Virus record (IMG/VR): IMGVR_UViG_3300042887_000985
Span: 1 to 40,981 of that record
DNA length: 40,981 nt
DNA from: a virus
Reading direction: 5' to 3' (one strand)
Shown: piece after piece, positions 1-40,981 of the stretch
Layout of the letters: each line of letters begins with the position of its first letter
Numbering within the stretch: position 1 is the stretch's first letter
Made by a program: the position numbers and the translations under genes
The notes under the pieces: model-generated
Told to the model about the DNA's origin: nothing
Databases searched by the model: none
What the model saw: the letters and a program-made list of their open reading frames with translations, nothing else

Positions 1-89
1 GCTGCATGGTGAGCGGAACAATGTCGAGCGAATATCCGGACGAGAGCCAACGCACCGCCGTCTGCATGGCACAATGGGAGAAGAAATAA
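1..89 (+). CDS. Portal protein, C-terminal end only (copy A)
   Basis: Read in the frame ending at the TAA at 87-89, the first codons give the same tail as the end of the complete portal gene at 35124-37319: a C-M-V-S-G-T-M start, then SEYPDESQR, and an AQWEKK end. It is cut by the window edge, so only about 28 residues are present. Substitutions relative to copy B include T/V and M/S near the end (QRTAVCMAQ versus QRVAVCSAQ). It is not a separate gene; it marks where the variant haplotype begins inside the portal extension. Confidence 0.9.
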   Translation, partial: CMVSGTMSSEYPDESQRTAVCMAQWEKK

Positions 90-503
90 ATGATAACACA
101 CGGCATAGCACTCGAAGCAAAAAAAGCACTCATCACCGGCGTTCACCAACCCGGCGACGAATATCGGATCGCGCTTTACAGCGCATCGGCAAAGATCGGG
201 CCGACGACAAAAGCCTACACAACCGAAGGCGAGATAAAGGGAATGGGCTACACCGCAGGGGGCGTAGCACTCAAGGGGCATCGCACAGGGATTATAGGCA
301 AAAATGCCTTTATAACATTTGATGACGTTGTCCTAAAATCTGTAACATTCGCAGCAGCCGGAGCGATGATCTACAACGCCAGCAAAGGCAACGCTGCCTT
401 GATTGTTCTCAGCATCGGGACGGAGAAGCACGTTTACAACAGCACTTTTGAATTGAAATTTCCCAAGCCAACCGAAACCAGTGCATTAATTTTACTCGCT
501 TAA
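90..503 (+). CDS. Small virion-associated protein, 137 aa (copy A)
   Basis: The start ATG follows the portal stop directly (TAA then ATG), with a purine-rich GGGAGAAGAA just upstream. The protein has no cysteine-rich or membrane segment. Residues 30-75 carry the pattern ALYSASAKIG, GEIKGMGYTAGG and KNAFITFDDVV, alternating small and beta-prone residues as in compact phage structural proteins. I do not recognise a named family. Its place between portal and maturation protease suggests a head, neck or decoration component. Copy B (37320) differs at about 13 of 137 residues, nearly all in the last 55, so the C-terminal half seems more exposed or less constrained. Function is unproven. Confidence 0.75.
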   Translation: MITHGIALEAKKALITGVHQPGDEYRIALYSASAKIGPTTKAYTTEGEIKGMGYTAGGVALKGHRTGIIGKNAFITFDDVVLKSVTFAAAGAMIYNASKGNAALIVLSIGTEKHVYNSTFELKFPKPTETSALILLA

Positions 504-505
504 AT

Positions 506-787
506 ATGAAACCAACAAATCCCATCATCATCGACGGAGAAACCTACGACATTTATACGATCCAGCTTGCGATCACATCCGTTGTAAACCCAGACGCAAG
601 CGAAGACGCGAATGTGGCTATGCGCCTTGTGCCAACTCGGGTCGCGAATGGCGAAGTCATTCTTGCAAACGACTACGCACGCACGATGGCACTCGGCAGC
701 GTCGAGAATGTTGATCAACCCACCAAGACCGCCGTTGCTCAAATTTCTGCAAGCATCCAAGAATTTATTTACGCGAAGGGACTTTAA
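506..787 (+). CDS. Conserved small hypothetical protein, 93 aa (copy A)
   Basis: Starts 3 bp after the previous stop without a clear Shine-Dalgarno site, which suggests translational coupling. The N-terminus (MKPTNPIIIDGETYDIYTI) looks like a beta hairpin and the C-terminal third (about residues 66-90) is predicted helical. No catalytic motif or membrane segment is visible. It is almost unchanged between the two copies (about 2 differences in 93), unlike its neighbours, so it is under stronger constraint. Its site in the head operon suggests a structural or assembly role, but I cannot name a family. Confidence 0.7.
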   Translation: MKPTNPIIIDGETYDIYTIQLAITSVVNPDASEDANVAMRLVPTRVANGEVILANDYARTMALGSVENVDQPTKTAVAQISASIQEFIYAKGL

Positions 788-790
788 GCG

Positions 791-2347
791 ATGGCACTTA
801 TTCTTTCGGCGGCAACGGGAAATTTCAACGCTGGCGCGACTTGGGTCGGGGGCATTGTGCCAGGGGTAGGGGATGAGGCTCGCGCTTCGACCACGCACGT
901 TATCACGATCACGGCAAACGTAACTTGCACCGAGCTTTCAAACGCAGGGACAGGCACATACGTTCTACAGAACGGCGTCACTTTGACGTCAAACGTCACG
1001 AACAAATCAACGACCGCCAACGTCAACTGCTTATCCTTTTCGGCGGTATCTCCTGCAACGGCAACGATTGTCGGGAACGTGACCGGAGGCGTTGCGTCCA
1101 ACGGTTCGGCGGTTGCAGGAACTGGGGCAATACTGAATTCCTCAACAGGCACATTGATTGTGCAGGGGAATGTCGTAGGCGGAAGCAACGTCATTTGCAT
1201 CGGCGCATTTAACTCCTCGACGGGGACAATTTCGATCACCGGTAACGTGACGGGAGGAACGGGAAACCAATGTCACGGAATTTACAATTCATCAACGGGG
1301 ACGATTTCAACTAGCGGGAATGTCGCCGGAGGCAGCGGGGCAACGGCAACGGGGGCAATCAATGCCGCAGCGGGAACTTTGACTATAACAGGCAACGTGT
1401 CGGGCGGGACGATTTCAACGGCTATAGGAATCAATAACTCTTCGACAGGAACGGTCACAATAACCAGCACCACTATATCTGGCACGGTTGCTATCGCCGT
1501 AACGAATGCAGTCGGCGGAACGGTGAATGTGACAGGCAACGTGACTGGCGGAACCGCAGCCAATATCTATGGCGTCAGTAATGCAGGGGTCGGAACCATC
1601 AACGTGACAGGAAATGTCACGGGCGGAACGGTGGTAGCCACATCGCACGGCTTAAACAATGCTTCGACAGGGATCGTCACCGTTACTGGTATCTGCACCG
1701 GAGGTGCGGCAGGAGCGGCAGGAGCAAACAATGCCGCAGCCGGAACAATAACGGCAACCCGTGCAAAGGGCAACGGATTCGGTATAGGCTCCGTAGCTAC
1801 TGCTGCTGGCGTTGGAGTTGCATCCGTGCAATCGTCAATTACAAAAATCGAAGAACTGGAATTTGGTGCATTGGGAATGTGTCCTGTATCTGGACCGTGC
1901 TACATAACACCGCTCACAACGAACGTAGCAATTTTCACAAAATACCCCGGCGGAACAGGAACTAAAACTTTGGTTGATGCAACGGCCTCCGCAGGAATGC
2001 CTGCGATAACCGACGTTCGTTTCGGCACAAGCTACGCAAGCGGAGCTTTGACAGGCGTTGCATATATTCCAGCCGCAGGATCAGTTGCATTCGGCGTTCA
2101 AGTCGATAACACGACTGGAACCGCAACTCTTACCGCCGCCAACGTCCGCGCTGCAATAGGCATGGCCTCAGCCAACCTCGATACGCAACTCTCTACAATT
2201 TCAACAAAGGCATCGGAGGTTCACGCAATCCACGGCCTCGACATAGCCAACGCGCTCACAGTCACGCCTACGAGCAGGACATCGGGAGCGATCACTCAAG
2301 CGATCACCGGAGACGGAACAACAAACACCGTAGTAACGAGGGTCTAA
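791..2347 (+). CDS. Beta-solenoid repeat virion protein, 518 aa (copy A)
   Basis: A ribosome site (GAAGGG) lies just before ATG 791. The N-terminus (GNFNAGATWVGGIVP, then GDEARAS) resembles the opening turn of beta-helix proteins with a W-x-GG-x-P-x-x-GD pattern. About residues 95-330 consist of many short imperfect turns with the consensus GNVTGG plus STGT(I/V)xxxG, typical of a right-handed beta-solenoid and visible in the DNA as degenerate repeats. The last 60 residues (DTQLSTISTKASEVHAIHGL) look helical and could trimerise. It is unusually placed upstream of the protease, not with the tail fibres. It may be a head fibre, adhesin-like decoration or a spike. No enzymatic motif was seen. Confidence 0.75.
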   Translation: MALILSAATGNFNAGATWVGGIVPGVGDEARASTTHVITITANVTCTELSNAGTGTYVLQNGVTLTSNVTNKSTTANVNCLSFSAVSPATATIVGNVTGGVASNGSAVAGTGAILNSSTGTLIVQGNVVGGSNVICIGAFNSSTGTISITGNVTGGTGNQCHGIYNSSTGTISTSGNVAGGSGATATGAINAAAGTLTITGNVSGGTISTAIGINNSSTGTVTITSTTISGTVAIAVTNAVGGTVNVTGNVTGGTAANIYGVSNAGVGTINVTGNVTGGTVVATSHGLNNASTGIVTVTGICTGGAAGAAGANNAAAGTITATRAKGNGFGIGSVATAAGVGVASVQSSITKIEELEFGALGMCPVSGPCYITPLTTNVAIFTKYPGGTGTKTLVDATASAGMPAITDVRFGTSYASGALTGVAYIPAAGSVAFGVQVDNTTGTATLTAANVRAAIGMASANLDTQLSTISTKASEVHAIHGLDIANALTVTPTSRTSGAITQAITGDGTTNTVVTRV

Positions 2348-2351
2348 GCGG

Positions 2352-2801
2352 ATGCTCGCTTCCCTGCTCATCGCCACGCAGGGCTTAATGCCAAGCCCAA
2401 CGCCGCTATCCATCGGCGTGCAGGGCTTGCTGTTTATTTCGGTTGTTCCGCCTGTCCCTATTTCTCCAACCGATCTGCCAGGGGGCGGAGGAAGGGGACG
2501 TGAAGAGCGCAAGGTCACGGCTACCGTTCGCGGAGTCCGTCTTGTTTTCTCGGTTGCGAACGTCGAAGCCTGCGCAGGTTCTCGCATTGAGATCGTAGGC
2601 TCATCTTGCTTCACCAAAGCTGGAGATGCAGAGCTTTGCGCTAGCACAAGCACGACGGTTCTAGGTGCTCGCACTCACGCCAGCGCAAATCGCCCAGAGA
2701 TCAGATTCTCCATGTCGTTCGATGTCATAGGTGGCGAAGAGGAGAACGAGTTAGAAGTTTATTTGATGGCGCAAGCGGCGATGGCATTGATGGACGACTA
2801 A
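2352..2801 (+). CDS. Variable small virion protein, 149 aa (copy A)
   Basis: Starts 5 bp after the preceding stop. The first 50 residues are hydrophobic and proline-rich and end in a glycine-rich linker (LPGGGGRGREER). The middle is beta-prone and the last 20 residues (EEENELEVYLMAQAAMALMD) form an acidic amphipathic helix. Comparison with copy B at 39582 shows both ends conserved, while residues 57-128 carry most of about 32 substitutions, by far the highest divergence of the repeated genes. I do not recognise the family. Conserved ends with a variable core fit a protein anchored in the capsid with an exposed domain. Confidence 0.7.
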   Translation: MLASLLIATQGLMPSPTPLSIGVQGLLFISVVPPVPISPTDLPGGGGRGREERKVTATVRGVRLVFSVANVEACAGSRIEIVGSSCFTKAGDAELCASTSTTVLGARTHASANRPEIRFSMSFDVIGGEEENELEVYLMAQAAMALMDD

Positions 2802-2820
2802 TTGACATCCGCGCCTTCGC

Positions 2821-3678
2821 ATGGATGTCATCGAAGGCGTATCAATCATTTCAATCGGCGAAGCGAAGGGCCACGGTCTATACGTTGACGAGACAACTTT
2901 GATGCAAGTCAAAGAGTGTGCGGAGTCATACAAGGGCGGCGTCAAAGTCAACCTGGACCACGGTGCAGGGATCAAAGACATCGTCGGATTCGTAAACAAT
3001 TTCCGCATCGTCGGCAAGCAACTCTTGGGCGATCTCAACCTTCTCGAAACATCGCCTATGCGCGACTACGTCCTGGAAATTTCAAGCAAACTGCCGGACA
3101 CCTTCGGCATCAGCATCGCTTTTACGGGGCCGATCCGCGAAGTGGAGGGCCTCGCCTTCGCAAGTTGCACCGAACTCTACAGCGCCGATCTCGTGCAAAC
3201 ACCAGCCGCAAATGCGACAGGTCTTTTCAGTTTTACCGCAAAGCAAGTTGACAAATTTTCCAAACAAATGGAAGACGCAACAATCGAAATCGAACCAAAG
3301 GAGGACGAGGTCAGCATCGCCGACATCGTTTCTCGTCTCGCAGCTCTCGAAACAGCCTTCGGCGACTACAAGAGCAAAATGGAAATGCCAGCCGAAGAGC
3401 CAGCAGCAGAGCCAATGAAGGAAGAAATGGCCGCTGAACTCAGCGTCATTTCCAAGCTCGAAGCAAAACTTGACTCGATCATCTCGAACTTCGGAGCCGC
3501 TCCAGTAAAGGCATCCGTAGTTGCTGAAGAGAAAGCGGTCGAAAAATTCGACCTCAAAGCAGTCATCACCCAGAAGACCGAGGAACTCGGCAGCCGCACC
3601 GAAGCGATCCGCTTTGCAATGCGCAACCACCGCGAAGCCTACATCGAGGCCCGCGATAACAACGAACTCAACTTTTAA
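2821..3678 (+). CDS. S78-like prohead maturation protease with C-terminal scaffold, 285 aa (copy A)
   Basis: Probably cleaves scaffold and capsid subunits during prohead maturation. Residues 40-140 follow the S78 prohead-protease layout: VNLDHG with His47, FGISIAF with Ser98 as likely nucleophile, then CTELYSADLVQTPAAN with Glu118 before the usual PAAN ending. Residues 150-285 are acidic and coiled-coil-like (EPKEDEV, SRLAALE, repeated EE/AAEP), as in protease-scaffold fusions; no separate scaffold gene is seen before the capsid gene. A TTGACA lies 13 bp before ATG 2821. The two copies differ at only 4 residues (102, 146, 148, 193), none of them the proposed catalytic residues. The fold assignment rests on motifs, not alignment. 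Confidence 0.85.
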   Translation: MDVIEGVSIISIGEAKGHGLYVDETTLMQVKECAESYKGGVKVNLDHGAGIKDIVGFVNNFRIVGKQLLGDLNLLETSPMRDYVLEISSKLPDTFGISIAFTGPIREVEGLAFASCTELYSADLVQTPAANATGLFSFTAKQVDKFSKQMEDATIEIEPKEDEVSIADIVSRLAALETAFGDYKSKMEMPAEEPAAEPMKEEMAAELSVISKLEAKLDSIISNFGAAPVKASVVAEEKAVEKFDLKAVITQKTEELGSRTEAIRFAMRNHREAYIEARDNNELNF

Positions 3679-3691
3679 TCCCAACTAATTT

Positions 3692-4054
3692 ATGGCAACA
3701 CAAAACGACCTAGGAATCCGGAGTTTTAACTTCGCTTCCGCTATCAGCGCCAACACTCTCGTGAGCGTGTCAGGCGACAACGCTGCGCAAGCAGCATCAA
3801 CCGGAGCCGCAGCAATCGGAGTTGTCCAAGACGACACCGCCGCCGCTGATCAAGGCGCCGTAAAAATGTTTTTCCCATCGCAGTTCGGCATCGTAGCCGC
3901 CGCCGGTATCGTTACCGCAGGAAGCTCCGTTTTTGCTGTTACCAACGGCACGATCGTTGGAACGCTTGCAGCAAGCGCCGCAACTCTCGGAATCGCGATC
4001 AACAGCGGCGTAGCCGGTGACATCGTGGAATACGTTCCTAAATTCAACCAATAA
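3692..4054 (+). CDS. Capsid cement/decoration protein (DUF2190-like), 120 aa
   Basis: Directly precedes the major capsid gene, the usual place for a decoration protein. The sequence is small, glycine/alanine rich and beta-structured: GVVQDDTAAADQGAVKM, then GIVTAGSSVF, TLGIAINSGVAGD and a VEYVPKF end. This pattern of short strands with ITAG/VTAG turns is that of the DUF2190 capsid cement family. Members bind the capsid surface after expansion and stabilise it. The start (ATGGCAACA) lacks a clear Shine-Dalgarno site; upstream is CCAACTAATTT. The first 20 codons are repeated at the window end (40922). Confidence 0.8.
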   Translation: MATQNDLGIRSFNFASAISANTLVSVSGDNAAQAASTGAAAIGVVQDDTAAADQGAVKMFFPSQFGIVAAAGIVTAGSSVFAVTNGTIVGTLAASAATLGIAINSGVAGDIVEYVPKFNQ

Positions 4055-5043: not shown

Positions 5044-5080
5044 AAAAGCCACCTCGAAAGGGGTGGCTTTTTTGTTTTTG
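5044..5080 (+). terminator. Rho-independent terminator after the capsid gene
   Basis: A perfect 10-bp stem, AAAAGCCACC (5044-5053) with GGTGGCTTTT (5062-5071), encloses an 8-nt loop and runs into a T-rich tract to 5080. It lies 23 bp after the capsid stop and just before a TTGACA hexamer (5081-5086), so transcription of the glycosylation cassette is likely separated from that of the capsid. Confidence 0.93.
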
Positions 5081-5104
5081 TTGACATATACTGCAAGAGT
5101 AAAC

Positions 5105-6778
5105 ATGAACAAAAAAACGAAGCTGGTCGCAGGGCTTATCTGCGGCAACGAAGAGCCGCGCATCGAGCGATGCGTTAAGTCACTCAAACAAATCTGTGAC
5201 GAGATTGTTGTCGTTCGCGCAATAGGAGCACTCAAGCCGGATCGGACGCTCGACATCGCCAGGGAACTAGGCTGTCACGTTGACGAATATCTCAACTCGC
5301 CGCTAGTCGCAGACTGGGAGCATCTCGACAACTTCGGCGAGGCTAGGAACAAAGCATTCGCGAAGGCTTACGAACTCGCAGGGAAAGACGGCTGGGTCAT
5401 GTGGGCCGACTGCGACGACATCATCGAACCGCACATGGTCGCGCCAACATTGGCCGCGCTTGAAGAATGCCCGCCAGAGCAGGATTGGATATTGACCGAC
5501 TACGTCATTCCAGAACAAGGCAAACGCGCCCCACGCGAGCGTTTCTTTCGTTACCAGACGGCTTGGTGGCATCGTCCGGTGCATGAGAACGCGCAGCCCA
5601 CGAAGGACGTGCAGGTATATATGCGGCGAGATCTTGAAATCATACACCAACCGCCGCTAGGTCATCGCAACAGCAGCGAGCGAAATCGCCGGATTCTAAT
5701 GCACCAAGACCGCATGACTTCTCACTTCAAATTTTATTTGCACTACGAGAATTTCATTGCCGGTAACAAGGAACTTGCGGCCAAATACGGATCGGAGGCA
5801 CTAGCCTTGACCGATCTCGACGGCGTCAACCGCTACGAAATCCTTTTAAATTGCGCCAACATTACGAGCGGGGAGACATCGCTCAACCTAGCACGCAAGG
5901 CCAAGGCACTTGAACCGAAACGCCGCGAAGCCTACGGACTTGAGGCCAGCATTTTGCTTGATGATAAAAAATACCAAGATGCGTTGAAAGTCGTGGAAGA
6001 AATGCTCGAAGTGCCGACGCCTAAGTTCCCACAATGGACGCACCGAAAGGAGTGGTATGGATGGAAGGGCGATCAACTCTACGCTTGGACGCTTCGACTT
6101 CTCGGACGCAACGAGGACGCCGAAGAGATCGAGCGCGAGACGTTGGCTGGATCGAACAGGCCTAAGATTTCTCTCGTCCATGCAACGCGTGGAAGGCCCG
6201 TGGAGGCCGTGCAATGTATGACGCTATGGTTGTCACGCGCAACGCACCCAGAGCGCGTGGAGCATATCTTTGCGGTCGATCACGACGACGAGACAGCGGA
6301 CGTTCTAAAGCGCTTCCGATCTGTGACGCAAAAAGAGGGTGGTTTTTCCGTCGGAGCGTGGAACTTGGGAGCCGCGCAAGCGACTGGTGATATTATCATT
6401 CAGTTATCTGACGACTGGGAATGCCCTCCTGGGTGGGACGAGATGGTTGAAAAGCGTCTCGACATTTCAAAACCGCAGGTTCTTCGTATCTCGGACGGAT
6501 ACCGCAAAGACGAATTGCTTTGCATGGCAATTCTTACGCGCAAATATTATGAGCAACATGGACTATTCAACCCAAGATTCCGAAACGTGTATTCCGATAC
6601 CGACTTCACCTTTCGTGCCGCGAAAAATGGGGCGATTGTTGATGCTCGTGATATTAGCATCGTTCATCACCACCCGTTTTTTGAAGAGCGTCCGCTCGAT
6701 GCTACATACGAGCGCGGAAACGATCCGGCGGAATATGAAAGAGCGAAGGCAATCTTCGACGAACTCCACCCGAAATGA
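5105..6778 (+). CDS. Two-domain family 2 glycosyltransferase with central repeat region, 557 aa
   Basis: Likely transfers sugars from nucleotide-sugar donors. Residues 5-200 are a GT-A/GT2 domain: GLICGNEEPRIERCV, NFGEARN at 76-82 and the metal-binding ADCDD at 101-105. The middle (about 225-345) is helical with TPR-like LxxxxxALxLxP spacing. A second GT-A domain runs from about residue 352 (ISLVHATRGRP) with QLSDDWECP near 432-440 as its acidic motif. I chose ATG 5105 because an in-frame start at 5063 lies inside the terminator stem. TTGACA is 18 bp upstream. The cassette between capsid and connector genes suggests glycosylation of virion proteins, though cell-surface or DNA targets are possible. 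Confidence 0.85.
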   Translation: MNKKTKLVAGLICGNEEPRIERCVKSLKQICDEIVVVRAIGALKPDRTLDIARELGCHVDEYLNSPLVADWEHLDNFGEARNKAFAKAYELAGKDGWVMWADCDDIIEPHMVAPTLAALEECPPEQDWILTDYVIPEQGKRAPRERFFRYQTAWWHRPVHENAQPTKDVQVYMRRDLEIIHQPPLGHRNSSERNRRILMHQDRMTSHFKFYLHYENFIAGNKELAAKYGSEALALTDLDGVNRYEILLNCANITSGETSLNLARKAKALEPKRREAYGLEASILLDDKKYQDALKVVEEMLEVPTPKFPQWTHRKEWYGWKGDQLYAWTLRLLGRNEDAEEIERETLAGSNRPKISLVHATRGRPVEAVQCMTLWLSRATHPERVEHIFAVDHDDETADVLKRFRSVTQKEGGFSVGAWNLGAAQATGDIIIQLSDDWECPPGWDEMVEKRLDISKPQVLRISDGYRKDELLCMAILTRKYYEQHGLFNPRFRNVYSDTDFTFRAAKNGAIVDARDISIVHHHPFFEERPLDATYERGNDPAEYERAKAIFDELHPK

Positions 6779-22416: not shown

Positions 22417-23817
22417 ATGAAAAAAACAGAACAACGCAATTTATTTGAAGATAAAAAAGAGTTTATTTATCTTGAGACGATTATTGGGTCAGGATTTGAG
22501 GCGGATGTTGCAAAACTAGCCCTTGATGACGGTATAGCATATCGAGCAGCAAGAAAAAATATGCAGATACACTCTGCGGTGCTGGTTAAAGTCAATGATG
22601 AGTTTGCTGGCTTTTTCACATTTCAAAACAACCATGAGATAAAAGAGTTTTGCTTGCTTCAATCTACGATTAAGCCTGAGTTCTTCTCTTATGATCTTTA
22701 TTCAGAAATGACGGCAGAGGTTGTTTCACACAATAAAAACCATTATCCAGCATTTATTACAACAAATCCAAAAAGTAAATTTGAAACGCCTAAATTTTTT
22801 GAGAGCATGGGTTTTAGAACTTACTTAGAAATGTCTGGATATGCTTATATGATATTAGGCTCAGACGAGCAAGCTAGATTTAAACTTCTCGCACACATTA
22901 CAATGTGCAATGTGTGGAACTCAATAAGCGGAAGATGGCTAAAATTAAAAAGAGAATGGAATGCGCTAATTGAAGGAGCTGGTGAAAAGGCATCAGTTAA
23001 AAATCCAAAGTATGCAACCCGTGATGGGTGCTGGCAAGGTAGCAGCGGGATGTCAAATGTTGTATTTACAACGCATAAAGTTGAGGACGGCATAATAAAA
23101 ACAAACTCGGAAAAATCACACAATGGAAACGCCTCTGTTTTAGATCCAGTAGCGTGTGAGGTTATCCTTCGTTTCTTTATGCCAGCGAACGGGAAACAAG
23201 TTTACAATCCATTTGGCGGAGGCGTCCAATTTGGATTTGTGTCAGGGCATTATGGATATGATTACGAATCAAGTGAAATTAGAAAAAACCAATGTGATGC
23301 AAATAATTTGATATGCGGTGAATTAAAGGGGAAAGCAATTTGGACGCACAGCGATAGTTCGATCTACAAACCGAGCCACAAATCAGATCTAGTTTTTACT
23401 TGCCCTCCATATTACAAGGTTGAGGAATATCTTGATTATGATGGAAAGCCTCCAGCGGGGGAACTAAACACTCTTCCAGATTATGAAACTTTTAGAGATT
23501 TGCTTTTTTCTGGATATAGAAACGCTATTGATTCATTGAATGAAAATTGTTTTTTTGTTGTAATGACTGGCGATAGCCGAGATAAAGATGGCGGGTATTA
23601 TTGTTGCGAGTCTGAGCATGAGTTATTCTTTAAAAATGAGGGCTTAATGGTTTATAATAAAATCATTTATCTTGAGTGTGAGTTTACACGCCTTGCTCAT
23701 GCTAAACGGACGCTAAATTATAGGAAATTTCCTAAACGTGAGCAAAAAATCATAGTTGCTTACAAGGGCGATCCAACTAAAATCAAAGACCTATATCCTT
23801 CAGTCGGGAGGCTTTAA
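22417..23817 (+). CDS. GNAT-like domain fused to a DNA methyltransferase, 466 aa
   Basis: Residues 20-150 resemble a GNAT/Mom-type acyltransferase fold: ETIIGSGFEADVAKLALDDG, AVLVKVNDEFAGFFTF (strands 4 and 5) and FITTNPKSKFETPKFFESMG. Residues about 235-466 are a methyltransferase: DPVACEVILRFF, motif I NPFGGG (264-269), and catalytic TCPPYY (328-333), the DPPY-type motif IV; methyl-binding precedes catalysis, so the order is alpha/gamma-like. The N4/N6 amino group of a base is the expected site. It is AT-rich against its neighbours, and couples (TAATG) to the next gene. The unusual fusion suggests base hypermodification or protection; the N-terminal role is inference. Confidence 0.78.
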   Translation: MKKTEQRNLFEDKKEFIYLETIIGSGFEADVAKLALDDGIAYRAARKNMQIHSAVLVKVNDEFAGFFTFQNNHEIKEFCLLQSTIKPEFFSYDLYSEMTAEVVSHNKNHYPAFITTNPKSKFETPKFFESMGFRTYLEMSGYAYMILGSDEQARFKLLAHITMCNVWNSISGRWLKLKREWNALIEGAGEKASVKNPKYATRDGCWQGSSGMSNVVFTTHKVEDGIIKTNSEKSHNGNASVLDPVACEVILRFFMPANGKQVYNPFGGGVQFGFVSGHYGYDYESSEIRKNQCDANNLICGELKGKAIWTHSDSSIYKPSHKSDLVFTCPPYYKVEEYLDYDGKPPAGELNTLPDYETFRDLLFSGYRNAIDSLNENCFFVVMTGDSRDKDGGYYCCESEHELFFKNEGLMVYNKIIYLECEFTRLAHAKRTLNYRKFPKREQKIIVAYKGDPTKIKDLYPSVGRL

Positions 23818-24641
23818 TGAAAAACTACTCAAACATAATATCATTAAATCTTAATTCTAGAGGGGTTTACTGTATAGATACCAGCATGGGATGTGAGAGC
23901 GGGATGAGAAATGAACTAGGGGGTTGTTATGGTGATTGTTATGCGGCAAAGTCAGCAAAACTATACGGATATGATTTTTCGAAAACAGTTTTAAGGGGGT
24001 TTGATGGATATTGGCATGAAATTGAAATATTAAAAAAAATAAATCATTCAAAAGCCAAGTTTATTAGAATAGGATGCAGTGGAGATCCTTCTGAAAATTG
24101 GCAGCATTGTATTAATATTTTAGACAAATTAAAAACCTGCAATAAAGAGATAGTGATAATTACAAGACATTGGACGCTTTTAAGCGACCAGCAGATAGAG
24201 TGGCTTTCCCGTTTAAATATTTGTATCAACTCATCCGTGTCGGCTCTCGACACTCCAGAAATAATGTATAGATCAATTTCTCAATTCAAAAGACTGGAAA
24301 AGCATTTAAAGTCAGTCCTAAGAATAGTATCATGTGATTTTAATACTAAAAATGAAACTGGCTTAAATTTGCACCAAATTCAAAATGAGTTATTTAAAAA
24401 TGAACCAGTGATTGATACTATATTTAGACCAAGTTTAAAAAATAAACTTGTGATTGATGGCATTGTAAATGTTTCTAAAACCTTATTCAACGGCAAAAAA
24501 ACATTAACGAGCAAGTTTAATAAAAGAACATTTGCAGGGAAATGCAAGAATTGCTCGGAGTTATGCGGAGTTGGCGTAAAGTCAAACTACAAACACACAA
24601 CAAGGCCAGGGCTTGAAACACAAAATCAATTTTGGAATTAA
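23817..24641 (+). CDS. Cysteine-rich radical-SAM-like protein, 274 aa
   Basis: Cysteines 19, 26, 37 and 41 occur in MGCESGMRNELGGCYGDCYA, near the N-terminus, like the G-C-x-x-x-S-x-G-C-x-x-C-Y-A site of phage radical-SAM-like families (compare DUF5131), though here the spacing is C-x10-C-x3-C. Later segments fit a TIM-barrel: FIRIGCSGDPSENW (83-96), IVIITRHWTLL and SSVSALD. The C-terminus adds CKNCSELCGVG, a second possible iron-sulfur or zinc site. Base composition is very AT-rich (15 of 60 G+C at 23821-23880). Start overlaps the methyltransferase stop, so both likely act in one pathway, perhaps converting a modified base. Not proven. Confidence 0.6.
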   Translation: MKNYSNIISLNLNSRGVYCIDTSMGCESGMRNELGGCYGDCYAAKSAKLYGYDFSKTVLRGFDGYWHEIEILKKINHSKAKFIRIGCSGDPSENWQHCINILDKLKTCNKEIVIITRHWTLLSDQQIEWLSRLNICINSSVSALDTPEIMYRSISQFKRLEKHLKSVLRIVSCDFNTKNETGLNLHQIQNELFKNEPVIDTIFRPSLKNKLVIDGIVNVSKTLFNGKKTLTSKFNKRTFAGKCKNCSELCGVGVKSNYKHTTRPGLETQNQFWN

Positions 24642-30114: not shown

Positions 30115-30792
30115 ATGGAACCGGCCATAATTGTTAGCCCAATACCAAGCAAGGAAGCCGAGCCTTGGATACTTGTTAGGCATTACGCAAAAAGAAAGTG
30201 TCCTATTTCTTATGCTTTTGGCGCATTCAGAAATAATGAACTCATTGGATTCGTTACATTCGGAACTCCAGCAAGCTCGACACTCAGAAAAGGAATAGCT
30301 GGGAATGAATGGATGGAATCAGTTTTAGAATTAAATCGGCTTTGCTGTTTAAGTGGAAAAAATACAGCAAGCATATTAGTCGGAAGAGCACTTAGGCTTT
30401 TACCAAAACCCTCCATAATTGTTAGCTATGCCGACACAGCCCAAGGGCATATTGGATATGTCTATCAAGCTACAAATTTTATCTATACAGGATTAAGTGC
30501 AAAAAGGACGGACTGGAAAATAAAAGGAAAAGAGCACTTGCACGGAGCAACGATTGCAGATGAAAGCCGTGGACAAATAGATCGTGCAAAATGGATGAGA
30601 GAAAAATATGGTGATGACTTTTATTTGGAACAAAGATCAAGAAAACATAGGTATATTTATCTATGCGGGAACTTAAGAGAACGTTTAAAAATGCGTTCTG
30701 CTTTGATGTATTGCGAGCAACCATATCCGAAGGGAGAGACTCGCAGGTATGACGCATCCGGAGAAATTCAAACACAATCAACTTTATTTTGA
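30115..30792 (+). CDS. Mom-family DNA hypermodification enzyme, 225 aa
   Basis: Resembles the Mu Mom family that modifies adenine by a methylcarbamoyl-type group to evade restriction enzymes. The order is diagnostic: VRHYAKRKCPISYAFGAF, GFVTFGTPAS, LELNRLCCLSGKNTAS (ELNRL 72-76), then SYADTAQGHIGYVYQATNF (104-122, Asp107) and YTGLSAKRTDW. This GNAT-like fold keeps the S-Y-A-D-x-x-x-G-H-x-G-x-x-Y-Q-A core. The gene is a singleton 3 bp after the helicase. Its base composition is AT-richer than the helicase. No com-like activator gene was seen; the inverted repeat at 30806-30845 may act in its control. Confidence 0.85.
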   Translation: MEPAIIVSPIPSKEAEPWILVRHYAKRKCPISYAFGAFRNNELIGFVTFGTPASSTLRKGIAGNEWMESVLELNRLCCLSGKNTASILVGRALRLLPKPSIIVSYADTAQGHIGYVYQATNFIYTGLSAKRTDWKIKGKEHLHGATIADESRGQIDRAKWMREKYGDDFYLEQRSRKHRYIYLCGNLRERLKMRSALMYCEQPYPKGETRRYDASGEIQTQSTLF

Positions 30793-35123: not shown

Positions 35124-37319
35124 ATGAAGCAAGACATCATCACCAAAGCCATTTCGTTCGTCTCTCCCAAGGCCGCTCTTGACCGCATGGTCAACCAAGC
35201 TAAACTTCGCAACTTCGGACGTTTCGATAGCGCATTGACAAGCGAGAAGCGCGGCATCAGCCGTGGCGTTAGCGGTGGCGAGGACACGGCAGGAACTCGC
35301 GAACGCTTCGCGCTCATCCGCGCCGCTCGCGATCTTGCCGACAATTTTCCGCCTGTCCGTTCTCTCCTTTTAAAATTTGCGACCTACGTTTCGGGGCGCA
35401 TCGCATACCAAGCCCGCACCGGCAACCGCGAAGCGGACACCGCTATCGAAAGATATTGGCAGAAATGGTGCAACGACTGCGATTTTCTTGGGCGTCACAA
35501 TTTCACAACGCTCCTGCAACTCGCTGTAACGGCAATGCTTCGCGATGGCGATTGTGGATTTATTATTGTTCGCGACAAAGAAGATTTGAAATTGCAGAGC
35601 GTGGAAGCCGACCGCATCGGATCGCCTTACGACCGCACGGACACGGATAAATACATCGGAGGCATCAACGTAGACGACTATGGAAGACCCGTTTCATACA
35701 CTATTTTCACGCGCACTATCAATAACCAGTATATTTCTCCTGTTGATATTGTTGCAAAGGAGTTTATACACTTGTTCGACGCAGCAAGACTTGACGAATA
35801 TCGCGGGCGCTCTGCTTTCGCTACTGCGCTGAACGCAACGCGCGACTTGCAGGAAGCGATCAAAGCCGAAGTGCAAGCGATCAAGTACGCTTCGTATCAG
35901 TCCGGAGTCATCACCACCGAATCAGGCGCAGCCGACGCAGGCGACTACTTCGCTCGCGGAAACTCAAACGATCAAGGCCAAGTCGCACGCCTTCAGTCGC
36001 TCGATCCTGGAACGGTCAACTATCTATCCGCAGGCGAGAAAATGGAAATGTTCAAGTCGGATCGTCCGACCGGAGCATTCGGAGAGTTCATCCGCTTGGT
36101 GCAGGCGCACATTTGCATGGCAGTCGGCTTGCCTTACGGCTTCGCATTCGACGCCGACAAGTCGGGGCCAATGGCAAGGATGGAGGCCGCGATGGCCGAG
36201 CGAACATTTCTTCGGTGGCGTGGACTCTTGGAAGGTCAATTTCTCAACCGCATCAAAAATGTTATCTTGCTGGATGCCGCTTCGCGTGGACTCATTCCAG
36301 ATTCCGAATACCTTCTTGATGGCCGCTGGTGCTGGCCTGCAAAGGTTTCGATTGACTACGGACGCGAAGCAAATGCCGACATCAATTTGTGGAAAGCTGG
36401 TTTGAAGACAGCAGGACAAATTTATAGCGACATGGGCGAGGACTACGAAGAAGCACTCCGCGCACGCGCCAAAGAAGCGAACATGATCAAGGAGTTAGGT
36501 CAAGAGTTTGACATCAATCCGTCTCGCATTTCAGATTCTGTACCGACAAGTACAAACGACTCAGAGCAAAAGCCTTTACCGCTAATTGAAAGCATTGGAG
36601 CAAACGGAACATTCGCGGTTTCAACCATCCTCACGCAACTAGCCTCTGGCGGATTGTCCGCTGAACAAGTGGCTGTGATCCTACGAGTTGTTTTCGGAAT
36701 GGATGAGGCGAGCGCCGCCGAATTAGTTAAATCTCAATCTCCGCAAAGTGAAGTTCAAGCGACAGAACAGCCTTCCGCACTCGCAGACGAGAACAAACCC
36801 AGCAAGGGCATGATCGAGGAGGCATTTAAGGGCTTAAAGTGGCGCGAAGAATACAACCGAGGCGGGACAGCGGTAGGAGTTGCCCGCGCTCGCGACATTT
36901 CGAACGGCAAGAATCTTTCCGACGATACCGTTAAAAGAATGCACTCCTTTTTTTCACGTCACGAAGTCGATAAAAAAGGCCAAGGATTCACTCCAGATGA
37001 AGACGGCTTCCCATCCGCAGGCCGCATTGCATGGGCATTGTGGGGCGGCGACGCAGGACAGACTTGGGCCGCCGATAAGGTTAAAGGAATGCAGGCATCG
37101 CAGCCCGAACAGATGAAAGTCTCGCTCGCCGTCCGCGATACGTTTGGACGCATCACCGGCTTTGAAACAAAGCACGAACTCGTTATGCCGACTCCAGAAA
37201 AAGACGAAGAGCAAGACGACTTTATTGGTCGGTGCATGGTGAGCGGAACGATGACGAGCGAATATCCAGACGAGAGCCAGCGCGTAGCGGTCTGCTCTGC
37301 ACAATGGGAGAAAAAATAA
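35124..37319 (+). CDS. Portal protein, lambda family, with C-terminal extension, 731 aa
   Basis: Residues 1-500 match lambda-type portals: ALIRAARDLADNFPPVRSLL, WCNDCDFLGRHNFTTLL, MLRDGDCGFIIVRDKEDLK, EFIHLFDAARLDEYRGRSA, and PYGFAFDADKSGPMARMEAA. After a variable linker comes an added module near 560-665: HSFFSRHEVDKKGQGF, then FPSAGRIAWALWGGDAGQTWA, known in other phage structural genes as a small domain. The end (EEQDDFIGRCMVSG, SEYPDESQRVAVC) is a further module with two cysteines, also found in phage head proteins. Lambda portals are nearer 530 residues, so about 200 residues are extra. Confidence 0.9.
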   Translation: MKQDIITKAISFVSPKAALDRMVNQAKLRNFGRFDSALTSEKRGISRGVSGGEDTAGTRERFALIRAARDLADNFPPVRSLLLKFATYVSGRIAYQARTGNREADTAIERYWQKWCNDCDFLGRHNFTTLLQLAVTAMLRDGDCGFIIVRDKEDLKLQSVEADRIGSPYDRTDTDKYIGGINVDDYGRPVSYTIFTRTINNQYISPVDIVAKEFIHLFDAARLDEYRGRSAFATALNATRDLQEAIKAEVQAIKYASYQSGVITTESGAADAGDYFARGNSNDQGQVARLQSLDPGTVNYLSAGEKMEMFKSDRPTGAFGEFIRLVQAHICMAVGLPYGFAFDADKSGPMARMEAAMAERTFLRWRGLLEGQFLNRIKNVILLDAASRGLIPDSEYLLDGRWCWPAKVSIDYGREANADINLWKAGLKTAGQIYSDMGEDYEEALRARAKEANMIKELGQEFDINPSRISDSVPTSTNDSEQKPLPLIESIGANGTFAVSTILTQLASGGLSAEQVAVILRVVFGMDEASAAELVKSQSPQSEVQATEQPSALADENKPSKGMIEEAFKGLKWREEYNRGGTAVGVARARDISNGKNLSDDTVKRMHSFFSRHEVDKKGQGFTPDEDGFPSAGRIAWALWGGDAGQTWAADKVKGMQASQPEQMKVSLAVRDTFGRITGFETKHELVMPTPEKDEEQDDFIGRCMVSGTMTSEYPDESQRVAVCSAQWEKK

Positions 37320-37733
37320 ATGATCACACACGGAATCGCACTCGAAGCAAAGAAAGCACTCATCACCGGAGTCCACCAACCCGGCGACGACTATCGGATC
37401 GCGCTTTACAGCGCGTCGGCAAAGATCGGGCCGACGACAAAAGCCTATACAACCGAAGGCGAGATAAAGGGAATGGGCTACACCGCAGGGGGCGTAGCAC
37501 TCAAGGGGCATCGTACGGGCATCATCGGCAAAAATGCCTTTATAACATTTGATGACGTTGTCCTAAAATCCGCAACCTTCGCCGCAGGTGGAGCGATGAT
37601 CTACAACGCCAGCAAAGGCAACGCAACCTTGTGCGTTCTCAACCTCGGAGCCGAGCGGCACGTTTATGACGGCGCGTTTGAACTCAAATTTCCCAAGCCA
37701 ACCGAAACCACCGCATTGATTTTACTCGCTTAA
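37320..37733 (+). CDS. Small virion-associated protein, 137 aa (copy B)
   Basis: Same length and order as the copy at 90-503. Differences cluster in the second half: S-A-T-F-A-A-G for S-V-T-F-A-A-A, and LCVLNLGAERHVYDGAF for LIVLSIGTEKHVYNSTF, about 13 in 137 overall. The identical start and middle show that constraint lies in the N-terminal half. Confidence 0.75.
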   Translation: MITHGIALEAKKALITGVHQPGDDYRIALYSASAKIGPTTKAYTTEGEIKGMGYTAGGVALKGHRTGIIGKNAFITFDDVVLKSATFAAGGAMIYNASKGNATLCVLNLGAERHVYDGAFELKFPKPTETTALILLA

Positions 37734-37735
37734 AT

Positions 37736-38017
37736 ATGAAACCAACCAATCCAATCGTCATCGACGGAGAAACCTACGACATTTATACGATCAATCTCGC
37801 GATCACGTCCGTTGTAAATCCAGACGCAAGCGAAGACGCGAATGTGGCGATGCGCCTTGTGCCAACTCGGGTCGCGAATGGCGAAGTCATTCTTGCCAAC
37901 GACTACGCTCGCACGATGGCACTCGGCAGCGTTGAGAATGTTGACCAACCTACTAAGACCGCAGTGGCTCAAATCTCCGCAAGCATTCAAGAATTTATTT
38001 ACGCGAAGGGGCTGTAA
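37736..38017 (+). CDS. Conserved small hypothetical protein, 93 aa (copy B)
   Basis: Two substitutions compared with 506-787 (I8V and Q25N), though the DNA differs at more positions, so most changes are synonymous. The ribosome site of the following gene (AAGGGG) is better here than in copy A (AAGGGA). Function as described for copy A is unknown. Confidence 0.7.
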   Translation: MKPTNPIVIDGETYDIYTINLAITSVVNPDASEDANVAMRLVPTRVANGEVILANDYARTMALGSVENVDQPTKTAVAQISASIQEFIYAKGL

Positions 38018-38020
38018 AAA

Positions 38021-39577
38021 ATGGCACTTATTCTTTCGGCGGCAACGGGAAATTTCAACGCTGGCGCGACTTGGGTCGGGGGCATTGTGCCTACGGTTGG
38101 CGATGAGGCAAGAGCATCGACGGGACACACAATCACGATCACCGCAAGCGTAACTTGCACCGAGATTTCAAATGCAGGGACAGGTACATATGTTCTCCAG
38201 AGCGGCGTGACTTTAACGGCAAATGTCACGAACAAATCAACGACCGTCAACGTCAACTGCTTATCCTTTTCGGCAGTCTCGCCTGCAACGGCAACGATTG
38301 TCGGGAACGTAACAGGCGGGGCTGCGTCCAATGGGTCGCCCCTTGCAGGAAGTGGAGCGATTCTTAATTCCTCAACAGGCACATTGATTGTGCAGGGGAA
38401 TGTCGTAGGCGGAAGCAACGTCAATTGCATCGGAGCTTTTAACTCCTCGACAGGGACAATTTCGATCACCGGTAACGTGACGGGAGGAACGGGAAACCAA
38501 TGTCACGGAATTTACAATTCATCAACGGGGACGATTTCAACTAGCGGGAATGTCGCCGGAGGAAGCGGGGCAACGGCAACGGGGGCAATCAATGCCGCAG
38601 CGGGAACTTTGACTATAACCGGCAACGTATCCGGCGGCACGATTGGAACGGCACTCGGAGTAAGCAATACTTCAACGGGAACGGTCACAATAACCAGCAC
38701 CACTATTTCTGGGACGGTTGCTATCGCCGTATCAAATTCAGTCGGCGGAACGGTGAATGTGACAGGCAACGTGACTGGTGGAACCGCCACTAATGTCTGT
38801 GGCATAAACAATGTTGGGGTAGGAACCGTCAACGTGACAGGCAATGTCACGGGCGGAACGGTGGTCGCCACCTCGCACGGCTTAAATAATGCCTCGACAG
38901 GGATCGTCGCCGTTACTGGAATCTGCACCGGAGGTGCGGCTGGAGCGGCTGGAGCAAATAATGCTGCGGCCGGAACAATCACAACAACCCGCGCAAAGGG
39001 TAACGGATTCGGTATCGGTTCCGTAGCTACTGCTGCTGGCGTTGGAATTGCATCCGTGCAATCGTCAATTACAAAAATCGAAGAACTGGAATTTGGTGCA
39101 TTGGGAATGTCTCCCGTATCTGGGCCGTGCTACATAACACCACTCACAACGAACGTAGCAATTTTCACAAAATACCCTGGCGGAACAGGGACTAAAACTT
39201 TGGTTGATGCAACGGCATCCGCAGGAATGCCTGCGATAACAGACGTTCGTTTCGGCACAAGCTACGCAAGCGGAGCATTGACGGGCGTTGCATATATTCC
39301 ATCGGCGTCAAGCGTTGGTTTCGGCGTCCCCGTGGACAACACAACAGGAACGGCAACACTCACCGCCGCCAACGTCCGCGCTGCAATAGGCATGGCCTCA
39401 GCTAACCTCGATACGCAACTCTCTACAATTTCAACAAAGGCATCGGAGGTTCACGCAATCCACGGCCTCGACATAGCCAACGCGCTAACGGTCACGCCTA
39501 CGAGCAGAACATCGGGCGCGATCACTCAAGCGATCACTGGAGACGGAACCACAAACACCGTAGTAACGAGGGTCTAA
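38021..39577 (+). CDS. Beta-solenoid repeat virion protein, 518 aa (copy B)
   Basis: Same length as copy A. Substitutions fall mainly on the variable positions of the solenoid turns (for example TIGTALGVSNTSTG for TISTAIGINNSSTG), while glycine/asparagine turn positions and the C-terminal helix are kept. No repeat unit has been gained or lost. Confidence 0.75.
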   Translation: MALILSAATGNFNAGATWVGGIVPTVGDEARASTGHTITITASVTCTEISNAGTGTYVLQSGVTLTANVTNKSTTVNVNCLSFSAVSPATATIVGNVTGGAASNGSPLAGSGAILNSSTGTLIVQGNVVGGSNVNCIGAFNSSTGTISITGNVTGGTGNQCHGIYNSSTGTISTSGNVAGGSGATATGAINAAAGTLTITGNVSGGTIGTALGVSNTSTGTVTITSTTISGTVAIAVSNSVGGTVNVTGNVTGGTATNVCGINNVGVGTVNVTGNVTGGTVVATSHGLNNASTGIVAVTGICTGGAAGAAGANNAAAGTITTTRAKGNGFGIGSVATAAGVGIASVQSSITKIEELEFGALGMSPVSGPCYITPLTTNVAIFTKYPGGTGTKTLVDATASAGMPAITDVRFGTSYASGALTGVAYIPSASSVGFGVPVDNTTGTATLTAANVRAAIGMASANLDTQLSTISTKASEVHAIHGLDIANALTVTPTSRTSGAITQAITGDGTTNTVVTRV

Positions 39578-39581
39578 GCGG

Positions 39582-40031
39582 ATGTTAGCTTCCCTGCTCA
39601 TCGCAACGCAGGGCTTATTGCCAAGCCCAACGCCGCTTTCAATCGGCGTTCAAGGCTTGCTGTTCGTTCCGGTCGTCCCGCCTGTTCCTATTTCTCCAAC
39701 CGATCTTCCAGGCGGAGGCGGAAGAGGGCGCGAAGAACGCAAAGTTACGGTCAAAGTTCGCGGCAACCGTCTTGTGTTCTCGGTCGCGAATGTGGATGTA
39801 TGCGCCGGTTCGCGCATTCAAGTTGTAGGCTCATCTTGCTTCTCGAATGCTGGCGAGGCAGGGCTTTCGATCAGCACAAAAACAACGGTGCTAGGCAGTC
39901 GCAATCATGCGGGAGTGAGTCGCGCAGGGCTTTCTATTTCCAGCACGTTCAACGTCATCGGATGCGAGGAAGAGAACGAGTTAGAAGTTTATTTGATGGC
40001 GCAAGCGGCGATGGCATTGATGGATGACTAA
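39582..40031 (+). CDS. Variable small virion protein, 149 aa (copy B)
   Basis: Ends identical with copy A; residues 57-128 replaced at many sites (RGNRLVFSVANVDVCAGSRI and SISTKTTVLGSRNHAGVSRA in this copy). About 32 of 149 residues differ, against about 4 of 285 in the following protease gene. The acidic C-terminal helix is unchanged. Confidence 0.7.
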   Translation: MLASLLIATQGLLPSPTPLSIGVQGLLFVPVVPPVPISPTDLPGGGGRGREERKVTVKVRGNRLVFSVANVDVCAGSRIQVVGSSCFSNAGEAGLSISTKTTVLGSRNHAGVSRAGLSISSTFNVIGCEEENELEVYLMAQAAMALMDD

Positions 40032-40050
40032 TTGACATCCGCGCCTTCGC

Positions 40051-40908
40051 ATGGATGTCATCGAAGGCGTATCAATAATTTCAATCGGCGAAGCGAAGGG
40101 CCACGGACTCTACGTTGACGAAACAACTTTGATGCAAGTCAAAGAGTGCGCCGAAAGCTACAAGGGCGGCGTCAAGGTCAACCTCGACCACGGTGCAGGG
40201 ATCAAGGACATCGTCGGATTCGTGAACAATTTTCGCATCGTCGGGAAACAACTCTTGGGCGATCTCAACCTTCTCGAAACATCGCCCATGCGCGACTACG
40301 TCCTGGAGATTTCAAGCAAACTGCCGGACACATTTGGAATCAGCATCGCTTTCAGCGGCCCGATCCGCGAAGTGGAGGGCCTCGCCTTCGCAAGTTGCAC
40401 CGAACTCTACAGCGCCGATCTCGTGCAAACACCAGCCGCAAATGCGACAGGTCTTTTTAGTTTTACCGCAAAGCAAGTTGACAAATTTTTCAAAGAAATG
40501 GAAGACGCAACAATTGAAATCGAACCAAAGGAGGACGAAGTCAGCATCGCCGACATCGTTTCTCGTCTCGCAGCTCTCGAAACCGCATTCGGCGACTACA
40601 AGAGCAAAATGGAAATGCCAGCCGAAGAGATGGCAGCCGAGCCTATGAAGGAAGAAATGGCCGCTGAACTCAGCGTCATTTCCAAGCTCGAAGCAAAACT
40701 CGACTCGATCATCTCGAACTTCGGAGCCGCTCCAGTAAAGGCATCCGTAGTTGCCGAGGAGAAAGCGGTCGAAAAATTCGACCTCAAAGCAGTCATCACC
40801 CAGAAAACCGAGGAACTCGGCAGCCGCACCGAAGCGATCCGCTTTGCAATGCGAAACCACCGCGAAGCCTACATCGAGGCCCGCGATAACAACGAACTCA
40901 ACTTTTAA
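40051..40908 (+). CDS. S78-like prohead protease with scaffold, 285 aa (copy B)
   Basis: Proposed catalytic His47, Ser98 and Glu118 are kept. Changes from copy A: T102S, S146F, Q148E and P193M. The upstream TTGACA (40032-40037) is also preserved at the same spacing. Role as for copy A. Confidence 0.85.
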   Translation: MDVIEGVSIISIGEAKGHGLYVDETTLMQVKECAESYKGGVKVNLDHGAGIKDIVGFVNNFRIVGKQLLGDLNLLETSPMRDYVLEISSKLPDTFGISIAFSGPIREVEGLAFASCTELYSADLVQTPAANATGLFSFTAKQVDKFFKEMEDATIEIEPKEDEVSIADIVSRLAALETAFGDYKSKMEMPAEEMAAEPMKEEMAAELSVISKLEAKLDSIISNFGAAPVKASVVAEEKAVEKFDLKAVITQKTEELGSRTEAIRFAMRNHREAYIEARDNNELNF

Positions 40909-40921
40909 TCCCAACTAATTT

Positions 40922-40981
40922 ATGGCAACACAAAACGACCTAGGAATCCGGAGTTTTAACTTCGCTTCCGCTATCAGCGCC
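40922..40981 (+). CDS. Capsid cement protein, N-terminal 20 codons (copy B, cut by window end)
   Basis: Identical to 3692-3751, reading ATQNDLGIRSFNFASAIS up to the end of the window. It lies inside the 127-bp identical segment, so it is the point where both strain versions become the same sequence. Only a fragment is here; the full gene is at 3692-4054. Confidence 0.9.
   Translation, partial: MATQNDLGIRSFNFASAISA

Follow-up and report, generated by a model that had tools for sequence, protein, structure and literature searches.

A viral gene pair with GNAT, methylase-like and radical-SAM-fold domains as a candidate DNA base hypermodification cassette

Two overlapping viral genes, P0001 and P0002, probably form one three-enzyme cassette that hypermodifies a base of the phage DNA, a reading to which we assign a probability of about 0.6. 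The first gene fuses a GNAT-fold domain to a DNA-methylase-like domain (MTase) and the second encodes a predicted radical SAM enzyme. Among described pathways we found none in which a radical SAM enzyme works with both a GNAT domain and an amino-MTase-fold transferase, still less one with all three in a single chain, as occurs in some relatives of the pair. The window referred to below is the whole stretch of DNA analysed, 40,981 nucleotides of IMG/VR record IMGVR_UViG_3300042887_000985.

Two coupled AT-rich genes

A sequence-only reading of the window had described two ORFs coupled by TAATG and much AT-richer than their neighbours. Both ORFs and the overlap were indeed present (Table 1), and the GC contents of P0001 (37.4%) and P0002 (33.0%) lay well below the 51.6 ± 4.1% of the 36 other window ORFs of at least 100 aa (z-scores of -3.5 and -4.6, respectively), which suggests recent acquisition. 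The same reading had noted NPFGGG and TCPPYY in P0001, an acyltransferase-like N-terminus, and a clustered C-x10-C-x3-C as well as a C-terminal cysteine site in P0002. We recovered the two P0001 motifs at residues 264-269 and 328-333 and the cysteines at positions 26/37/41 and 243/246/250, while a structural model backed a GNAT fold for the N-terminus. Searches of Pfam and NCBIfam returned no above-cut-off name for either protein, and PHROGs recognised only the MTase part of P0001. Genes for DNA recombination (RuvC-like, Sak4 and an exonuclease) are found next to the pair, and no near relatives of the source phage were found in GenBank.

Table 1. Features of the P0001-P0002 region (window coordinates)
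Feature	Position	Strand	Remarks
P0001, GNAT-MTase fusion	22417..23817	+	466 aa; homologues in 32 IMG/VR contigs, 59-99% identity
GNAT-fold domain (~residues 14-150)	22456..22866	+	AlphaFold pLDDT 87.8; every Foldseek PDB match listed is a GNAT protein
DNA-methylase-like domain, CPPY family (residues 166-466)	22912..23814	+	phrog_498 1.1e-33, phrog_12517 9.8e-34; PF01555 below cut-off
Motif I, NPFGGGVQFG (residues 264-273)	23206..23235	+	Asn/Phe in place of Asp/Arg of partnerless ParB-MTases
Motif IV, TCPPYY (residues 328-333)	23398..23415	+	CPPY common to nearly all of the family
TAATG stop/start overlap	23815..23819	+	couples P0001 and P0002
P0002, radical-SAM-fold protein	23817..24641	+	274 aa; AlphaFold pLDDT 90.7, pTM 0.87
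Predicted [4Fe-4S] site, Cys26-x10-Cys37-x3-Cys41-Tyr-Ala	23892..23939	+	cysteines invariant in alignment
RIGCSGDP, GGE-like motif after barrel strand 2	24066..24089	+	nearly invariant
Cys243-x2-Cys246-x3-Cys250, possible second metal site	24543..24566	+	127/127 homologues

Radical SAM proteins of the cassette

The assignment of P0002 as radical-SAM-like is well supported by its modelled fold; as such an enzyme it would bind a [4Fe-4S] cluster and cleave SAM reductively. The sequence-only reading had called it radical-SAM-like and had tied this claim to a TIM barrel with a cluster site; the AlphaFold model, built from 21 sequences, has a partial alpha/beta TIM barrel of the radical SAM type, and a three-cysteine motif sits at its first barrel loop, but with the spacing C-x10-C-x3-C rather than the canonical CX3CX2C. 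The top Foldseek match in the PDB was EpeE (E 6e-4, probability 1.0), PFL-AE and SuiB were matched too, and the top matches in the viral library were radical SAM proteins, with TM-scores of only about 0.4. Across homologues down to about 31-35% identity, all six cysteines and the RxGxxGDP, T(K/R)HW and NxSxS motifs were invariant or nearly so. The C-terminal site, extended to CxxCxxxCG, was kept throughout the 127 distinct full-length homologues; 119 of them carry the N-terminal cysteine core followed by CYA, and of the other eight the six displayed keep the three cysteines with CYS. The first gap of this core varies from 9 to 25 residues and the second is always 3. This conservation of cysteines and motifs is far beyond chance.

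P0002 could not be placed in any named family by matches in Pfam, NCBIfam, PHROGs or PDB sequences. None of the 21 family members tested matched the radical SAM profile PF04055, and none matched DUF5131 (phage Gp37/Gp68), a family that we had presumed it to resemble. As for Gp88 (PF17338), for which we know of no function, one P0002 relative matched it weakly (E 0.05) and two Gp88 models were among the fold matches (E 0.027), but the P0002 family lacks significant sequence membership. Matches to PPR and scorpion-toxin entries, which cover short or cysteine-rich stretches, were taken as chance.

Where the P0002 type is missing, a divergent radical SAM protein of about 290 aa fills its slot, usually with a start/stop overlap. 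This substitute matches PF04055 (2.6e-11) and has the motif GCxxxCxxCYA, and CX3CX2C was found in 72 of 72 sequences. Its profile aligned with that of P0002 over 171 columns (E 0.0017, but with a probability of just 15.7%), in register, with CYA on CYA, MTD on GDP and TKS on TKH. We regard this match as the strongest argument from sequence that P0002 is probably a radical SAM enzyme despite its C-x10-C-x3-C spacing, and the argument from the AlphaFold model and Foldseek, itself a predicted structure, is independent of it. The canonical family is not confined to the cassette. We rejected a rule that it always accompanies an MTase, as some phages have it with no MTase detected nearby: in the set where it is common (loci L200-L265, phrog_13321), a ParB-MTase adjoins it in 32 of 64 loci, other genes, including other MTases in a few cases, in the rest. 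At one locus (L187, MT835521.1, 7315-8837) it follows a small C5-cytosine-methylase-like protein, as in similar pairs at L235 and L258, and at L185 a triad that has the canonical gene is preceded by a second radical SAM protein (phrog_9298, 157-1026).

Linkage of the three parts

A search of IMG/VR with P0002 returned near-identical contigs only, all carrying both genes, while P0001 found 32 loci, nearly all with full-length homologues, and a P0002 homologue adjoined the GNAT-MTase gene in every one of these with enough flank. Profile searches reached further (198 loci with the P0002 profile and 234 with the GNAT-domain profile, 80 of each being kept). The resulting census comprised 197 GNAT+MTase loci from overlapping scans, with some contigs counted twice, or 124 loci without near-copies. 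A radical SAM gene adjoined GNAT+MTase in 192 of the 197. The radical SAM gene was split downstream in 92 loci, fused in 60, split upstream in 20 (some of which may be sequencing frameshifts) and of the canonical CX3CX2C type in 20, leaving five without one. Three of these five lie near a contig end, and upstream in L139 a C-terminal fragment of the gene can be seen; L163 and L164 have no local radical SAM gene beside the GNAT-MTase, and none was found in the whole 40.8-kb contig of L164. In the fused form, which many of the 32 loci found with P0001 show, one continuous ORF (about 730 aa) runs in the order rSAM-GNAT-MTase, with the P0002 part N-terminal, and overlaps of 1 or 4 bases between the GNAT-MTase and radical SAM genes recur in split relatives. 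Fusion, canonical substitute and the MTase-SpeD link described below are additions to the sequence-only reading, which covered the split form only.

When the architectures were mapped onto a tree of 125 MTases, 26 label changes were needed overall, with 15 for the fused label and 10 for the canonical one (at least 6 of each forced by well-supported branches), which indicates repeated re-joining and exchange of the parts. The triad alone was present in each of the 124 dereplicated loci; the next commonest neighbour family reached 26 of 124. Judged by gene content and order, the triad thus behaves as one functional unit that has been rebuilt repeatedly. No full-length cassette was found in the cultured phage records searched, whereas it was found in roughly 200 uncultivated viral contigs or more; four GTDB bacterial contigs with the fusion were assigned to anaerobes (Desulfobacterales, Desulfobacula, Smithella and Spirochaetes). 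Internal stops or frame breaks in the MTase, GNAT or radical SAM frames of L066, L072 and L031 may be sequencing errors.

GNAT and methylase-like domains of P0001

Residues 1-163 of P0001 were modelled with a GNAT fold, the best Foldseek PDB match among those listed having an E-value of 6e-6. The CoA pyrophosphate loop [QR]xxGx[GA] was found in none of 135 distinct GNAT-domain sequences with a readable beta4; the domain may therefore use a donor other than CoA or be non-catalytic. It is not decaying, given its high conservation (67% mean column identity, with the motifs RAARKNMQ and EFCLLQS). Phage Mu Mom likewise has a GNAT fold (PMC7824862) and follows the same logic of phage DNA modification, but the P0001 domain shows no profile similarity to it (hhalign E 0.68). 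Membership in the Mom family (PF25680) was rejected on this value and on the absence of Mom from the Pfam hits, and co-occurrence with Mom was discarded as support, being not enriched in triad phages (3/50 vs 1/29). To our knowledge, Mu Mom has no MTase or radical SAM partner.

The methylase-like domain keeps the order of N6/N4 amino-MTases, in which motif I is followed by an xPPY motif IV, here CPPY. P0001 (13.3 bits) and its L177 counterpart (23.5 bits) did not reach the PF01555 cut-off of 26.7 bits, and the SpeD-linked relatives lie above it. The cultured relatives are phage ParB-MTases (phrog_498 and phrog_12517, e.g. Listeria phage B054 gp77 and Enterococcus phiFL3A gp36), which share CPPY and are homologous over residues ~165-460 at ~29-31% identity, but have ParB where P0001 has GNAT. 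Triad MTases further differ from them in their near-obligate radical SAM partner and in motif I, which reads N..G..F/M rather than D..G..R.

Sister branches have partners of their own. In two of the closest cultured relatives, from unrelated phages, the MTase gene overlaps a SAM decarboxylase gene (PF02675, 2e-19 and 2e-23), and in a scan of one ParB-MTase branch such a gene (SpeD) lay beside the MTase in 74 of 80 IMG/VR loci. This large branch (L268, L271 and L283-L362), in which the SAM decarboxylase family gene comes almost obligately next, has the motif I FDCFAGD[TS]VFGY. The SpeD-linked enzymes (e.g. of Croceibacter phage P2559S and Pseudomonas phage ZRG1) resemble the triad in MTase family, near-obligate adjoining partner and replaced motif I Arg, but have a SAM decarboxylase family partner and an N-terminal ParB of their own, keep the Asp and form a separate branch; ParB-MTase plus SpeD is thus a separate candidate DNA-modification system. 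Other relatives have a PALP (pyridoxal phosphate) enzyme, which is encoded by the next gene after the MTase (L272, L274) or inserted in the MTase as a PALP-type domain between motifs I and IV (L273, Pseudanabaena phage Pam4; L279, Erythrobacter phage ZS04). Neither SpeD nor PALP was found in triad loci.

Motif I follows the partner: N..G..[FMLY] in all 141 triad MTases and D..D..F/M in all 58 SpeD-linked ones, versus D..G..R in 69 of 77 partnerless and 6 of 8 PALP-linked enzymes. These patterns suggest, at the sequence level, a chemistry other than plain methylation. They are also clade markers, since the two Arg-less groups form separate, each fully supported branches that are not joined in the MTase tree, and a correlation that amounts to about two events has little statistical force. 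The amino-acid end of SAM is usually contacted, in class I MTases, by an acidic motif I residue, here the Asp, where a change would fit a changed donor; the Arg may contact the carboxylate of SAM. The loss of the Asp could also mean that the triad MTase is impaired.

Proposed pathway and alternative explanations

The sequence-only reading had taken the two genes for a base-hypermodification pathway. The enzyme identities and their coupling stand, on the modelled folds, cysteine conservation, near-obligate linkage, fusion, order swaps and canonical substitution; hypermodification is the best reading of these, and DNA as its substrate is suggested by the MTase family. Chemistry other than methyl transfer would be in line with the motif I residues and with the sister branch linked to SpeD, and we infer the order of steps, the target base and the purpose. 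In the proposed pathway, the CPPY methylase-fold domain would flip out the target base and transfer a SAM-derived group onto it, the radical SAM protein would carry out radical chemistry on either this group or the donor, and the GNAT domain would acylate an amine, probably one borne by the transferred group; the modified base would then block host nucleases. Radical SAM enzymes are able to remodel unactivated carbon. A GNAT enzyme needs an amine or similar acceptor, which an MTase leaving an amine-bearing group would supply, and three steps on one flipped base would explain the fusion.

Tentatively, we propose that the partnered CPPY 'methylases' transfer SAM-derived aminoalkyl groups instead of methyl, in the SpeD branch an aminopropyl group from decarboxylated SAM, and that the triad adds a related amine-bearing group to a DNA base, followed by radical-SAM remodelling and an acyl cap. 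The decarboxylated-SAM part is weakened by the possibility that SpeD homologues of phages decarboxylate ornithine or arginine instead (PMC10407285). If true, such aminoalkyl transfer would constitute a previously undescribed class of DNA modification. Given the link of the sister branch to SAM decarboxylase, the whole 'methylase'-annotated family may use non-SAM donors. The kind of system would be a known one, phage DNA base hypermodification, with possibly a categorically newer chemistry. Our literature searches, with poor coverage of subscription journals, turned up no account of either the triad or the SpeD-MTase pair. As the fusions are single chains, the cassette could be tested by expressing one gene.

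A possible though doubtful variant of the hypermodification reading, whose confidence overlaps with that of the reading itself, is that the radical SAM and GNAT enzymes modify SAM (e.g. to an N-acylated or a decarboxylated form) and that the MTase transfers the group of this modified donor to DNA. It would account for the loss of both Asp and Arg in the triad motif I and for the SpeD branch, which loses only the Arg, as suits decarboxylated SAM, and it has a phage precedent in CmoA, which makes carboxy-SAM for CmoX (PMC12783734). The residue roles, however, come from general MTase knowledge rather than from a structure of the CPPY family, and fusion to the MTase fits action on DNA equally well. 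It is unlikely that the MTase simply makes N6-methyladenine or N4-methylcytosine, with the GNAT domain only recognising DNA in ParB's stead and the radical SAM protein working independently, for instance in DNA repair. In favour, the MTase family carries the annotation DNA (adenine) methyltransferase, the GNAT domain, which has no CoA loop, sits at the N-terminus where relatives have ParB, and the canonical substitute weakly resembles a phage 'DNA repair photolyase' (7e-7); yet 60 loci have the radical SAM part fused to the rest, it has survived repeated rearrangement, the GNAT domain is highly conserved, and motif I is off the default in every triad member.

Modification of tRNA, rRNA or a host protein, on which radical SAM and GNAT enzymes often act, appears improbable, given that the MTase relatives are ParB-fused phage DNA methylases and that the pair adjoins DNA recombination genes in the window. 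We consider a role of the cassette in defence or restriction-modification, carried by the phage, very improbable: PADLOC gave weak matches to type II MTases and, for the fused L014 protein, to mads_2 (8e-9), but these matches span the MTase fold only, and no nuclease or effector is conserved beside the triad in most loci.

Comparison with other hypermodification systems

The hypermodification reading has a close parallel in the CmoA/CmoX/CmoY pathway of Synechococcus phage S-B43, where a homologue of MTases attaches a group derived from SAM, other than methyl, for later elaboration (PMC12783734). That pathway uses a C5-cytosine MTase fold with an SPPC motif, carboxy-SAM and an ATP-dependent ligase, and has no GNAT or radical SAM component. 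Thymidine hypermodification derived from 5hmdU (phages M6 and ViI; PMC6449724) is likewise a multi-enzyme phage pathway. Among about 20 window ORFs scanned, a subset of all ORFs, there was neither a dUMP hydroxymethylase nor a 5hmdU kinase. Pathways of the 5hmdU-derived type start with 5-hydroxymethyl-dUMP and a DNA kinase, and some use a radical SAM enzyme.

Other features of the window

A Mom-family DNA modification gene (30115-30792, plus strand; PF25680 2.8e-39, phrog_1384 2.9e-52) follows the DnaB helicase gene; it is AT-rich too (39.5% GC) and would be a second candidate DNA-modification system of the source phage. Among the head genes, directly after the major head protein, lies a gene for a 571-aa protein with a glycosyltransferase family 2 match (5063-6778, plus strand; PF00535 4e-17; phrog_13126, phrog_14945). 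The window ends (1-3751 and 37231-40981) repeat each other over 3.75 kb in the same gene order at only 90% identity, perhaps because the assembly ran round a circle and joined two strain variants.
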